Positions 6,436 to 10,309 of a stretch of DNA of 64,000 nt are shown here, one piece after another. The notes beneath the pieces are model-generated. The model ran no database searches. It was not told where the DNA came from and saw only the letters and a list, made by a program, of their open reading frames with translations. Position numbers and translations under genes: made by a program. The stretch is from NCBI GenBank assembly GCA_017438975.1, contig JAFRUH010000009.1, forward strand, positions 62,001-126,000, in the 5' to 3' direction. Within the stretch, counting starts at the first letter, position 1. Each line of letters opens with the position of its first letter. The DNA comes from Bacteroidales bacterium. GTDB taxonomy: Bacteria; Bacteroidota; Bacteroidia; Bacteroidales; UBA932.

Positions 6436-8616
6436 TTAACTGATAAAGAGGAGTTCCCTATATTTCGGGAGGGGCCAGATCTTGTTGTCCACGACTTCTT
6501 CGAGAAGGTCGATCGGCCGCCTGAGGTCATCGAAGCGCAGGGCGATCTCCTGGAAGGCGACGGCGCGGGAATACGCATCTTCGATCTTCTCGGCGGCGAG
6601 GGCGTCCTCCCTCAGGTCGTTGGCCTTCCGGTAGACCTCGGCGACGGAGTCTGTGATGGTCCGGATCAGCGAAAGTTCGGCAGAGCATTCGTCGGCGGAG
6701 CCGTAGATGCTCTTGTGCCGCTCCACCTCTTCCAGGAGGAGGTTCTTGTATGTGAAAGCGGCGGGAATGATATGGTTGACGGCCATCCTGAACATCACGC
6801 TGCTCTCGATCTGGATTTTCTTGCAATAGGTCTCCCACTTGACTTCGTTCCTGGCCTCGAGTTCCTTCTCCGTGAAGACGCCCGTTTCCGTGAACATCCG
6901 GACGCTCTCTTCACGGGTGAACTGCTTGAACATCTCGGGGACGCTGGCTTCGGTATCGAGACCGCGCCGGGCCGCTTCCGCCTTCCAGGCGTCCGTGTAC
7001 CCGTTCCCGTCGAAGCAGATCACGTCGATGATTTCCTTGATGATCGGCTTGAGGACGTCCATGACGGCGATGTCGGTCGGTTTTCCCTTGGCCAGTTCCG
7101 CATCGACTGCCTTCTTGAATTCAGTCAGTTGCTGGGCGACGGCCGCGTTGAGGGTGATCATCGCTCCGGCGCAGTTGGCGGGGGATCCCACAGCACGGAA
7201 CTCGAAGCGGTTGCCCGTGAAGGCGAAGGGGGAGGTCCGGTTCCGGTCGGTATTGTCTATGAAGATTTCCGGGATTTCCACGAGTCCGACGCTCTTTCCC
7301 TTCTTGCCGGCGATTTCGATCGGAGTGCCGGAAGGCAGTTCGACGAGTTTCCTGAGTACGGCCGTCATCGTCCTTCCGAGGAAAGCGGAAACGATGGCGG
7401 GCGGGGCCTCGTTGGCGCCGAGACGGTGGGCGTTCGTCGCGCTGGCGATGGAGGCTTTCAGAAGGCCGTTGTGGCGCTGTACGGCGGCCAGGACGTTGAC
7501 GAAGAAGGTGACGAACTGCAGATTCCCCATGGCGTCCTTGCCCGGAGCCAGGAGCTGGACCCCGGTATCGGTCCCCAGCGACCAGTTGTTGTGCTTGCCG
7601 GATCCGTTGATCCCGGCGAAGGGCTTTTCGTGGAACAGGACGACGAAACCGTGTTTCCGCGCGATCTTGTCCATCAGGTTCATGACGATCTGGTTCTGGT
7701 CGTTGGCAAGGTTCGTTTCCCCGTAGATCGGGGCCAGTTCGAACTGGTTCGGAGCGACTTCGTTGTGCCGGGTCTTGAGGGGAACGCCCAGCCGGTGCGC
7801 CGCGATCTCGAGATCCCGCATGAATGCGGCTACCCGGGAGGGAATGGCACCGAAATAATGGTCGTCAAGCTGCTGGCTTTTCGAGGAGATGTGTCCGAAA
7901 AGGGTCCTTCCGGTAATCATCAGGTCGGTCCGGGCGGCGTACAGGGCCTCGTCGACGAGGAAATACTCCTGCTCCCATCCGAGATAGGAGAGGACCTTTT
8001 TCACGTCCGGATCGAAGAGATGGCAGATCGGAAGGGCGGCGTCGCCGACCGCCTTGAGGGCTTTCTTGAGGGGAGTCTTGTAATCGAGCGCCTCGCCGGT
8101 ATAGGAGATGAATACCGTGGGAATGCAGAGGGTGTCGTCCTGGATGAAAACGGGGGAGGTGGGGTCCCAGGCCGTGTACCCCCGGGCTTCGAAGGTCGCC
8201 CGGATGCCGCCGCTCGGGAAAGAGGATGCGTCCGGCTCCTGCTGGGCGAGCGCCCCTCCGTCGAAGGATTCGATGACGCCGCCCTTCCCGTCATAGTCGA
8301 TCAGGACGTCGTGCTTTTCCGCGGTTCCTTCCGTCAGCGGCTGGAACCAGTGGCAGACGTGGGTTACATGGTGCTCCATGGCCCATTCCTTCATTCCTTC
8401 CGCTACGCCGTCCGCAGTCCTGCGGTCCAGGGGTTTCCCTCCTTCGATGCATTCCAGAAGGGATTTGAGGGTGCTGGAATCCAGATACTTGTGCATCTTC
8501 TTCCGGTCGAAGACGAGCTCCCCGAAGTACTCGGAGATCTTTTTCTCCGGTTTCTCCGCCGGAACGGCTTTCTTGCCGAACGATTCTTTGACAAGGTCAA
8601 ATCTTTCGATACTCAT
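6436..8616 (-). CDS. glnN: Glutamine synthetase type III
   Basis: This 726-residue enzyme makes glutamine from glutamate, ammonia and ATP in the cytoplasm. The length and the N-terminal region (ISEYFGELVFDRKKM, VTHVCHWFQPLT) are typical of the GSIII class of Bacteroidota and differ from the GSI enzymes of about 470 residues. The active-site block around residues 295-345 contains RHNEVAPNQFELAPIYGE and GINGSGKHNNWS. The start is preceded by AAAAAAGGTGTCTT. The gene is first in the operon with gltS. A leader of about 205 nt upstream holds a glutamine-rich small ORF and a GC hairpin, which suggests control by glutamine supply. Confidence 0.96.
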   Translation of the reverse strand: MSIERFDLVKESFGKKAVPAEKPEKKISEYFGELVFDRKKMHKYLDSSTLKSLLECIEGGKPLDRRTADGVAEGMKEWAMEHHVTHVCHWFQPLTEGTAEKHDVLIDYDGKGGVIESFDGGALAQQEPDASSFPSGGIRATFEARGYTAWDPTSPVFIQDDTLCIPTVFISYTGEALDYKTPLKKALKAVGDAALPICHLFDPDVKKVLSYLGWEQEYFLVDEALYAARTDLMITGRTLFGHISSKSQQLDDHYFGAIPSRVAAFMRDLEIAAHRLGVPLKTRHNEVAPNQFELAPIYGETNLANDQNQIVMNLMDKIARKHGFVVLFHEKPFAGINGSGKHNNWSLGTDTGVQLLAPGKDAMGNLQFVTFFVNVLAAVQRHNGLLKASIASATNAHRLGANEAPPAIVSAFLGRTMTAVLRKLVELPSGTPIEIAGKKGKSVGLVEIPEIFIDNTDRNRTSPFAFTGNRFEFRAVGSPANCAGAMITLNAAVAQQLTEFKKAVDAELAKGKPTDIAVMDVLKPIIKEIIDVICFDGNGYTDAWKAEAARRGLDTEASVPEMFKQFTREESVRMFTETGVFTEKELEARNEVKWETYCKKIQIESSVMFRMAVNHIIPAAFTYKNLLLEEVERHKSIYGSADECSAELSLIRTITDSVAEVYRKANDLREDALAAEKIEDAYSRAVAFQEIALRFDDLRRPIDLLEEVVDNKIWPLPKYRELLFIS

Positions 8617-8652
8617 AAGACACCTTTTTTAGTTCGTTTATTATATACGTTG

Positions 8653-8680
8653 AAGGCCGGTCCATGCGGAACCGGCCCTT
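8653..8680. promoter_or_regulatory. GC-rich hairpin in the glnN leader, possible attenuator
   Basis: On the minus strand, AAGGGCCGGT and ACCGGCCTT form a stem of about nine pairs with one bulged G around an 8-9 nt loop. It lies between the small leader ORF and the glnN ribosome-binding site. Its 5' arm (GGCCGG, 8677-8672) can also pair with CCGGCC at 8725-8720 in the leader ORF, so two exclusive folds are possible. Read on the plus strand, the stem is followed by CTTTTT and looks like an intrinsic terminator, although no plus-strand gene ends here. On the minus strand there is no clear U-run, so termination in that direction is uncertain. Confidence 0.55.
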
Positions 8681-8705
8681 TTTATCCTACTGTAATCCAT
8701 CCTGT

Positions 8706-8813
8706 CTATCGTGCCATCCGGCCGGAATCATGACACGCAGCATCTGCCTGCTCCTGCTGGAGCCGGGCCTGGGACTGCTGCTGGTTGAAAGAGTAGATCA
8801 TAAGGGTCATCAT
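8706..8813 (-). CDS. Putative glutamine-rich leader peptide of glnN (35 aa)
   Basis: A small ORF between the glnN promoter and glnN encodes 35 residues, starting MMTLMIYSFN and then containing QQQSQ and QQEQ. Seven of 35 residues are Gln, all CAG, within codons 11-22, and the ORF ends with TAG. The predicted transcription start is only about 10 nt upstream of its ATGATG start. A run of codons for the pathway's own product is the classic mark of an attenuation leader, as in trp and his leaders. No homologue is recalled. Translation is not proven, but the position and the codon cluster make a regulatory role likely. Confidence 0.6.
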   Translation of the reverse strand: MMTLMIYSFNQQQSQARLQQEQADAACHDSGRMAR

Positions 8814-8828
8814 TCCGTGAACTGGATT

Positions 8829-8858
8829 CAAAGATAGCGAAAAAATGTGGGAATCCAA
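8829..8858 (-). promoter_or_regulatory. Promoter of the glnN leader and operon
   Basis: On the minus strand, TTG (8858-8856), 19 nt, then TATCTTTG (8836-8829) matches the Bacteroides housekeeping promoter. Transcription should start near 8822, giving a leader of about 205 nt before glnN. It is divergent from the metY promoter at 8974-9005. Confidence 0.8.
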
Positions 8859-8973
8859 GAATTTTCAAAAGAAGATTTTTTTTCTCCCCGGAGTCCGGGG
8901 AATGCTCGTTTTCGGAATAAACGGTTTGACGACGGATTGGTTATTGGGTGATTTTTCCATTCTTTTTTATTTA

Positions 8974-9005
8974 ATTGGAAAGAATGCCTGTTTCTTCTAT
9001 CTTTG
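8974..9005 (+). promoter_or_regulatory. Promoter of metY-metF-metH
   Basis: ATTG (8974-8977), 20 nt, then TATCTTTG (8998-9005) matches the Bacteroides consensus. The predicted start near 9012 leaves only about 14 nt before the metY ATG, so there is no space for a SAM or cobalamin riboswitch. Confidence 0.8.
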
Positions 9006-9025
9006 CAGAAAGATTAATCAGCGCT

Positions 9026-10309
9026 ATGAAACCGAACGTGAAAAGATCGACCCTGTGTGTCCAGGCCGGATGGGAGCCCAAGAATGGAGAGCCTCGCGTC
9101 CTCCCGATTTATCAGAGTACCACTTTCAAATATGACGATACCGAGCAGATGGCCGACCTGTTCGACCTGAAGGCGGAAGGCTATTTCTATACCCGTCTCC
9201 AGAATCCGACCAACGACGCGGTCGCGAAAAAGATCGCGGCGCTGGAAGGAGGCGTCGGCGCCATGCTCACCTCGAGCGGCCAGGCCGCCAATTTCTACGC
9301 CCTGTTCAATATCTGCCAGGCCGGGGACCATTTTATCACCTCGACCGAAATCTACGGCGGGACCTACAACCTGTTCGGCGTGACTTTCAAGAAGCTTGGG
9401 ATCGAATGTACCTTCATCGACCAGGACGCTTCCGAGGAGGAAATCGACAAGGCCTTCCGCCCGAACACCAAAGCCCTCTTCGGGGAAACCCTCTCCAATC
9501 CGGGCTGCCGGGTCCTGGACATTGAAAAATTCGCCCGGACCGCCCACAGGCACGGTGTTCCCCTGATCGTCGACAATACCTTCCCGACCCCGATCAACTG
9601 CCGTCCCTTCGAGTGGGGCGCCGACATCGTGACCCATTCCACGACCAAATACATGGACGGCCATGCAACCCAGGTCGGCGGTGTCGTCGTGGACAGCGGG
9701 AATTTCGACTGGGATGCCTGCGCGGACAAATTCCCCGGACTGACCACCCCGGACGACTCCTATCACGGACTGACCTATACCAAGGCTTTCGGGAAGATGG
9801 CCTATATGACCAAGCTCGTCGCCCAGCTGATGCGGGACCTCGGGTCCATCCCGTCCCCGCACAACGCCTTCCTGCTGAACCTGGGGCTGGAAACCCTCCA
9901 CCTTCGCGTCCCGCGCCACTGCGAGAACGCCCTGAAAATCGCCCGTTTCCTGCAGGCTGACCCACGGGTCGCATGGGTCCATTACGCCGACCTCCCGGAG
10001 GACAGGGACCATGCTCTCGCGGCCAAATATCTTCCGGACGGGACCTGCGGTGTCATGGCCTTCGGTCTCAAGGGAGACCGCGAGACCGCGATCCGCTTCA
10101 TGGATTCCCTCCGGCTGATCTGCATCGTGACGCACGTCGCCGACGCGAGAAGCTGCGTTCTCCATCCGGCGAGCCATACCCACCGTCAGCTCTCCGACGA
10201 GCAGCTCCGCGAAGCCGGAGTCGCTCCGGACCTGATCCGTCTTTCCGTCGGAATCGAGGATGCGGACGACCTGATCGACGACATCCGGGAGGCGCTGGAC
10301 AAGATTTAA
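9026..10309 (+). CDS. metY: O-acetylhomoserine sulfhydrylase (homocysteine synthase)
   Basis: This 427-residue PLP enzyme of the Cys/Met metabolism family makes homocysteine from O-acetylhomoserine and sulfide. Markers are the N-terminal TLCVQAGWEP and PIYQSTTF, YTRLQNPTN near residue 60, the cofactor loop SSGQAAN near 85, and the Schiff-base lysine in HSTTKYMDGH near 205. The size fits MetY (about 430) better than cystathionine gamma-synthase (about 380). The ATG at 9026 is preferred over an upstream in-frame ATG at 8975 because the latter lies ahead of the predicted transcription start. It is the first gene of metY-metF-metH. Confidence 0.93.
   Translation: MKPNVKRSTLCVQAGWEPKNGEPRVLPIYQSTTFKYDDTEQMADLFDLKAEGYFYTRLQNPTNDAVAKKIAALEGGVGAMLTSSGQAANFYALFNICQAGDHFITSTEIYGGTYNLFGVTFKKLGIECTFIDQDASEEEIDKAFRPNTKALFGETLSNPGCRVLDIEKFARTAHRHGVPLIVDNTFPTPINCRPFEWGADIVTHSTTKYMDGHATQVGGVVVDSGNFDWDACADKFPGLTTPDDSYHGLTYTKAFGKMAYMTKLVAQLMRDLGSIPSPHNAFLLNLGLETLHLRVPRHCENALKIARFLQADPRVAWVHYADLPEDRDHALAAKYLPDGTCGVMAFGLKGDRETAIRFMDSLRLICIVTHVADARSCVLHPASHTHRQLSDEQLREAGVAPDLIRLSVGIEDADDLIDDIREALDKI

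Follow-up and report, generated by a model that had tools for sequence, protein, structure and literature searches.

The leader upstream of glnN in the window

The window, the whole 64,000-nucleotide stretch analysed here, comes from the genome of a Cryptobacteroides-like member of the Bacteroidales and carries glnN on its minus strand (6436..8616). The gene encodes a type III glutamine synthetase, with Pfam matches to GSIII_N (1.5e-72) and Gln-synt_C; with TIGR03105, an NCBIfam model also named type III, it scores 36 bits, far under the 470-bit cut-off. Divergent from glnN lies a frame (9014-10183, plus strand) resembling O-acetylhomoserine aminocarboxypropyltransferase (TIGR01326, 528 bits).

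Read along the minus strand, the region contains a promoter-like element, a leader ORF, its stop codon, a G+C-rich hairpin and then glnN, the gene proposed to be under control. The promoter-like element (8829..8858) consists of TTG (8858-8856), 19 nt and TATCTTTG (8836-8829), an arrangement of the type TTG-N19-TAnnTTn[G/C], which we take to be the Bacteroidota promoter consensus. Transcription would start about 10 nt upstream of the leader ORF. This ORF (8706..8813) has 35 codons, from an ATG at 8813 to a TAG ending at 8706, and encodes MMTLMIYSFNQQQSQARLQQEQADAACHDSGRMAR; seven CAG (Gln) codons stand among its codons 11-22 (8748..8783) and form the putative sensor. An earlier note, made from these letters alone, had described this layout with the same positions, and our direct reading confirmed it.

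Within the ORF, the putative antiterminator strand CCGGCC (8720..8725; CCAGYC in most relatives) matches GGCCGG (8677-8672) at six of six pairs. GGCCGG belongs to the 5' arm of a terminator-like hairpin (8653..8679; AGGGCCGGTTCCGCATGGACCGGCCTT), whose U-tract is degenerate. In ribosome-free RNA, a fold predicts a protector hairpin holding the antiterminator strand (8710..8737, minus strand, coordinates read by hand from the dot-bracket string). As local segments, the terminator, antiterminator and protector reach -18.7, -10.7 and -15.2 kcal/mol. In the sister leader (G389, L244) the peptide ends in SINQQQSQRRLQQEQADAACHDSGRMAR. We rejected a second short ORF, which starts at the ATG at 8699 (MDYSRIKRAGSAWTGLQRI, read by eye) and overlaps the hairpin, since it is not kept in the sister G389.

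Gln/Asn codon clusters and the genes behind them

We assembled 110 glnN loci, 30 kept from 61 related genomes and 80 from named contigs. The upstream DNA was read for 109 of them (L045 had too little upstream sequence and was dropped); the set includes loci from the same contigs or from close relatives, such as L008 and L059, whose leader sequence is the same. At 24 of the 109 loci, a short ORF with at least eight Gln/Asn per 14 codons lies no more than 450 nt upstream of glnN. In a typical case CCAGYC is found near the end of the ORF, followed by an AGGCTGG...CCAGCCT hairpin and a T-run just before glnN. As a control for the choice of frame, the same scoring was applied to all 7880 short ORFs (12-75 codons, both strands) of the 80 named loci. 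Twenty reached eight per 14 codons, and all 20 precede glnN or asnB on the sense strand, with close relatives included among the loci; at a threshold of seven, 26 ORFs passed, six being non-leaders. Upstream of glnK (up to 1.5 kb, 30 loci of the order, 29 of these loci being from other families), no leader-like ORF was found, one weak ORF passing at six per 14 codons.

Across 60 distinct leaders, 592 of the 763 cluster residues are Gln or Asn, against 46 of 1003 in the rest of the leader (up to eight codons before the cluster and everything after), a contrast that is partly by construction since Gln/Asn define the cluster. Thus, the cluster persists while the remainder drifts, as the earlier note had proposed to check. 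As a sensor, the cluster is not made of Gln codons alone, as that note had it: Gln and Asn codons occur together in the relatives, and some leader copies before glnN have no cluster. A hairpin without a Gln/Asn cluster precedes glnN in L043, L060, L061, L073 and L076, as well as in L292, L294 and L297. In some loci (L171, L098), asnB lies directly upstream of glnN.

Copies in other genomes were searched with R2, a covariance model of 24 leaders (20 before glnN, three before asnB and one before glnK). It spans the region from antiterminator to terminator; in a few rows one or two codons from the end of the cluster remain, mostly in gapped columns. The rows of alignments A1 (21) and A3 (24) were picked by eye from upstream regions. 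Matches to R1 below about 30 bits were dropped, being mostly ordinary terminators among the 24 read, and the count for the genus uses R2 at E <= 1e-6 alone. At this threshold the 400 genomes of the genus give at least 69 matches, spread over 63 of them, a lower bound because the search filters were stricter; 30 closely copy training rows, and the other 39 do not. A frame with at least six Gln/Asn per 14 codons is present in 68 of the 68 matches with readable upstream DNA, the remaining match (G667) starting at a contig end, with no leader to read. The promoter-like TAnnTTn[G/C] occurs 5' of the cluster in 66 of 68 leaders, and in 15 of 68 when the reverse complement of the same stretch is read.

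The first gene downstream of the 69 matches is glnN in 48 cases, asnB in 10 and glnK in eight; the others are followed by a purF-like gene and then asnB, by a porin-like gene without a Pfam match, and by a contig end. Hence 67 of 69 stand before glnN, asnB, glnK or the purF-like gene with asnB, and with one porin-like exception the genes putatively under control act in the metabolism of the amino acids that would be sensed. Where the earlier note saw a control of glnN, this gene is indeed the commonest partner, but asnB, glnK-amtB, purF-like and glmS genes are found behind the leader too. At L246 (G652:C15:14092-14203, minus strand), a Gln/Asn leader with an attenuator precedes a protein judged porin-like by eye, which has no Pfam match. 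At L107, a further GGCTGG hairpin lies about 100 nt before glnN, after a Gln/Asn leader with its own terminator; these are possibly two attenuators in tandem.

The distribution of the leader is patchy, and outside the genus it is rare. R2 matched in three of 393 genomes of the order, the window's own included, and in one of 198 genomes of the family of L089, namely L089's own. Seven of the nine genomes reached through glnN loci have one match each. The family of L080 has 11 matches in nine of 201 genomes, L080's own included. Three of these precede glnK-amtB, with 12-14 Gln/Asn per 14 codons; two precede glmS, with nine (the protein-family search was made on L301 alone); and six precede glnN, with merely 2-6. 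The leaders of L292, L294 and L297 before glnN are attenuator-like and of the type MKVLIEYGFRYALEVGFNPKRN...LSPAGE (sequence from L294; for L292 and L297 the DNA was read by eye). A similar leader in L293 and L295 contains 5-6 Gln/Asn. The three leaders without a cluster could be decaying, or could encode an arrest peptide.

The composition of the cluster varies with the gene behind it. When the 68 leaders were grouped into 25 lineages (single linkage, alignment score 75%), the mean Gln/(Gln+Asn) was 0.64 before glnN (13 lineages), 0.50 before glnK (five), 0.40 before asnB (four) and 0.09 before the purF-like-asnB operon (one). The glnN lineages differ from the asnB lineages (P = 0.012) and from asnB, glnK and purF-like-asnB lineages pooled (P = 0.005; both one-sided Mann-Whitney). 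The Gln:Asn ratio thus goes with the gene downstream. CAR and AAY codons have little in common, so that a signal at the level of amino acids accounts for this better than a motif in the nucleotides would. Strongly Asn-dominated leaders also stand before asnB at more distant upstream positions in L065 and L080.

Helices, spacing and modelled folding

The terminator and antiterminator helices are mutually exclusive, and the pairing of both is kept across relatives. In 24 sequences, the antiterminator helix is paired in 142 of 142 scored cells. Four of its six pairs are invariant, and it holds one A-U to G-C double change, common to the window and L032. Among 500 shuffles, 86 yield a double change of this kind, and three match the observed percentage paired. 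The antiterminator is paired throughout, with thin covariation. Across 67 leaders (that of G652:C15 was left out of this table), the variable pair is A-U in 58, G.U in five, G-C in four and A.C in none. Matched pairs of other kinds in further lineages include GACCGGTC with GACCGGTC (L035) and GCCGGTC with GACCGGT (L176). Among 13 leaders without a GGCTGG arm, nine are more complementary to their own arm than to GGCTGG arms, the others being L055, L065, L080 and L179. Owing to the strong conservation of the core, a crude complementarity score (17.2 for own and 16.5 for cross pairs) separated poorly. In the terminator, 98.4% of cells are paired and 13 are changed on both sides, and none of 500 shuffles reach as high. 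The protector hairpin was unsupported as a conserved element of the family (mean z of -0.42 against shuffles).

The spacing of the parts was also examined. The last Gln/Asn codon lies 21-34 nt from the antiterminator in 66 of 68 leaders. Relative to the start of the antiterminator strand, the stop codon lies between -10 and +23 nt in 61 of 68 leaders and outside this range in seven, limits that we set after the counts were seen. With these author-set limits, the distance from sensor to antiterminator is compatible with both a stalled ribosome and one that terminates.

We then modelled the folding with a ribosome footprint assumed to reach 12 nt past the stalled codon, leaving out G436:C109:11412, so that 67 leaders remained. 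For the window copy, the modelled antiterminator has a probability of 0.97-0.98 with the ribosome stalled in the cluster and of 4e-5 without a ribosome; a ribosome placed at the stop codon brings it to 0 by construction, because the assumed footprint hides the strand. Over the 67 leaders the mean is 0.57 with a stall at the last codon, 0.24 with a stall in mid-cluster, 0.32 in free RNA and 0.02 at the stop codon, this last value being largely a consequence of the assumed footprint. The antiterminator reaches at least 0.5 in 35 leaders with the last-codon stall, in 15 with the mid-cluster stall and in 21 without a ribosome. The modelled switch goes in the expected direction but is clean in only part of the set. 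Upstream pairing of the terminator 5' arm averages 0.76 against 0.65 in shuffled sequences, and lies above the shuffled mean in only 44 of 67.

A predicted attenuator, its alternatives and its context

We infer that the leader is translated, and that stalling and termination would respond to the supply of Gln and Asn. A shortage of charged tRNA-Gln or tRNA-Asn would make the ribosome stall in the codon cluster. This would leave CCGGCC (or CCAGYC) free to pair with the terminator 5' arm GGCCGG (or GGCTGG). With the antiterminator formed, glnN would be transcribed, as would the asnB, glnK-amtB, purF-like or glmS genes that follow the leader in relatives. An ample supply of the amides would instead let the ribosome reach the stop codon and cover CCGGCC (or CCAGYC); the terminator would then form and transcription would stop. 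The window's genome encodes a glutaminyl-tRNA synthetase (711 bits; cut-off 426), so tRNA-Gln can be charged directly from glutamine. AsnB makes Asn from glutamine; therefore, a shortage of glutamine should slow ribosomes on both Gln and Asn codons.

We consider it likely (probability about 0.8) that the leader works as a ribosome-mediated transcription attenuator like those of his and trp, in which Gln codons, joined by Asn codons in relatives, act as the sensor. As a property of the family, attenuation appears well supported by the parts and their placement, their conservation, the pair changes and the gene context. Against it stand the degenerate U-tract of the window copy, the patchy distribution, the glnN leaders devoid of a cluster, the thin covariation of the antiterminator, the unconserved protector hairpin, the leaders whose stop codon falls outside the range and the modelled switch that is clean in only part of the set. 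Codon evolution also weighs against it: in 65 overlapping pairs of close leaders, single changes number 83, 93 and 104 at positions 1, 2 and 3, with no third-position excess, and the changes of Gln codons are all non-synonymous (CAG/CAA exchange in 0 of 30), although 34 of the 48 involving Asn are AAC/AAT. The attenuation reading of the earlier note has accordingly gained support from the persistence of the cluster and from the antiterminator and terminator, both kept with some compensatory changes.

The window copy may stand apart from its relatives. Because its hairpin lacks a U-tract, this copy could act on the translation of glnN or be decaying, which we regard as unlikely and which would be compatible with attenuation in the family. 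The missing U-run, named as the weak point in the earlier note, is real in the window: three of the 9 nt past the stem are T, which puts this copy among the lowest two of the 67 leaders scored (the sister G389 has five), and no T-run follows the hairpin, with no terminator-like site between 8000 and 9500. Relatives do have a U-run, with at least four T in these 9 nt in 65 of the 67 leaders. Between the end of the hairpin and the glnN start lie 36 nt, so that this start is left uncovered, which speaks against translational control, and the antiterminator pair kept as G-C in both the window and its sister argues against decay.

A second alternative, which we hold to be improbable, is that an RNA-binding protein or a glutamine-binding aptamer reads the leader RNA through the CCAGYC/GGCTGG stem, the Gln/Asn frame being incidental. 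The invariant pairs would suit it, as the CCAG/GGCTGG core is conserved well beyond the needs of pairing, and so would the few copies with a hairpin and no cluster. However, the cluster draws on two unrelated families of codons, CAR and AAY, in a ratio that follows the downstream gene. Moreover, these codons number 592 in the leader frame and three and 39 in the other frames, counts that are partly by construction since the leader frame is the richest in Gln/Asn among the frames open across the site. At gathering scores, the leader of the window and those of 20 relatives matched no Rfam family, and none matched the leader on the minus strand of the window at 8400-9100 up to E = 5. Glutamine riboswitches (RF01739, RF01704) and the T-box leader, a family that is part of Rfam, were rejected on these covariance-model searches of the window and 20 relatives.

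We find it very unlikely that the leader peptide itself is the product, whether as a functional Gln/Asn-rich small protein or as an arrest peptide sensing a ligand. The leader peptide shared without a cluster by L292, L294 and L297 would fit such a role, but elsewhere the peptides differ between lineages outside the cluster, and their length and stop position vary. In addition, the 65 overlapping pairs of close leaders contain 182 non-synonymous and 98 synonymous single changes.

Chance, in the form of a CAG-repeat tract beside a common terminator, is barely credible: short triplet repeats expand easily and CAG as such is ordinary usage, making up 93% of Gln codons (429 of 462 in 32 long ORFs of the window), so that the signal is the clustering, yet the clusters mix Gln, Asn and Ser codons instead of forming pure repeats, and both the place of the 20 strongest ORFs and the glnK control stand against it.

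The proposed attenuator can be set beside known systems. Leader-peptide transcription attenuators of the his, trp and thr type are known from Proteobacteria. The Gln/Asn leaders share with them a short 5' ORF rich in codons for the end product, competing antiterminator and terminator, and downstream genes of the same pathway; they differ in their Gln and Asn codons, in their occurrence in Bacteroidota, in the set of nitrogen-assimilation genes and in a protector (1:2) hairpin that is not conserved across the family. The Bacteroid-trp motif (RF01692), which we take to be a Trp-codon leader, was unmatched in the window and in the 20 relatives searched. The part of PMC2864571 available to us gives it as a cis-regulatory motif in Bacteroidetes, a feature shared with the leader described here. 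As far as the available text of PMC2965389 goes, leader peptides are discussed there, and its authors knew of no such system outside Proteobacteria and Actinobacteria, ermC excepted, before their finding in a bacillus. In the portion of PMC8632094 at hand, uORFC-8-2 is a cysteine-codon leader before cysS in Rhodobacterales, where stalling is proposed to allow transcriptional read-through; our leader would likewise convert a stall at specific codons into read-through, with another amino acid, phylum and gene. According to the accessible sections of PMC2864571, cyanobacterial glnA RNAs (RF01739) precede genes for PII, glutamine synthetase, glutamate synthase and ammonium transporters, which are the same kind of downstream genes. 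Unlike these and the Downstream-peptide RNAs (RF01704), which the same sections describe as cyanobacterial aptamers, the Gln/Asn leader has no Rfam match.

Among the literature matches listed, with most subscription journals outside their scope and sources seen in part, no Gln- or Asn-codon leader is described, in line with the statement of the earlier note that none was known before a type III glutamine synthetase. Within this literature, Gln and Asn would be two additions to the amino acids sensed by leader codons, and the leader would extend amino-acid leader peptides to nitrogen genes of Bacteroidota. Bacteroidales dominate in gut and rumen, and to our knowledge the way in which they sense nitrogen is poorly known. 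Ammonium changes the glnK-amtB-PRU_1977-asnB cluster of Prevotella ruminicola 23 by 38- to 69-fold, and the parts of the report at hand name no regulator of it beyond PII (PMC5552732). A leader reading Gln and Asn codons would offer a concrete and easily tested mechanism in related genomes.

More tentatively, we hypothesize that separate attenuators form a regulon that could be a main nitrogen sensor in part of the Bacteroidales. It would act through the speed of the ribosome over amide codons, with each Gln:Asn mix tuned to its operon (glnN, asnB, glnK-amtB, purF-like or glmS), and might replace P-II in the window's genome. No P-II protein was found in this genome (98% complete) at E <= 1e-10, unlike in relatives that have glnK-amtB behind a Gln/Asn leader.

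A leader specific for another codon was also encountered. L179 (G022:C79:3068-3176, minus strand) carries the leader MTKVNTIQRTNWWWRLNDNTGQALRV with three adjacent Trp codons, a hairpin and a T-run, followed by a TrpB-like gene; it was picked up by R1, and its antiterminator pairing score is low. Its sequence suggests that codon-specific leaders may exist more widely in the genus. In a control for His runs in the window's genome, one place was found, which lies inside a protein with a signal-like start and is not a leader. A Salinivirgaceae contig (L092:1890-1935) matches the Rfam family Acido-Lenti-1 (RF01687) at 46.3 bits, a motif listed for Acidobacteria and Lentisphaerae in the available part of PMC2864571. 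Finally, the glnN match at G050:C4:307738-309782 is in two pieces, the first of which contains three internal stop codons.
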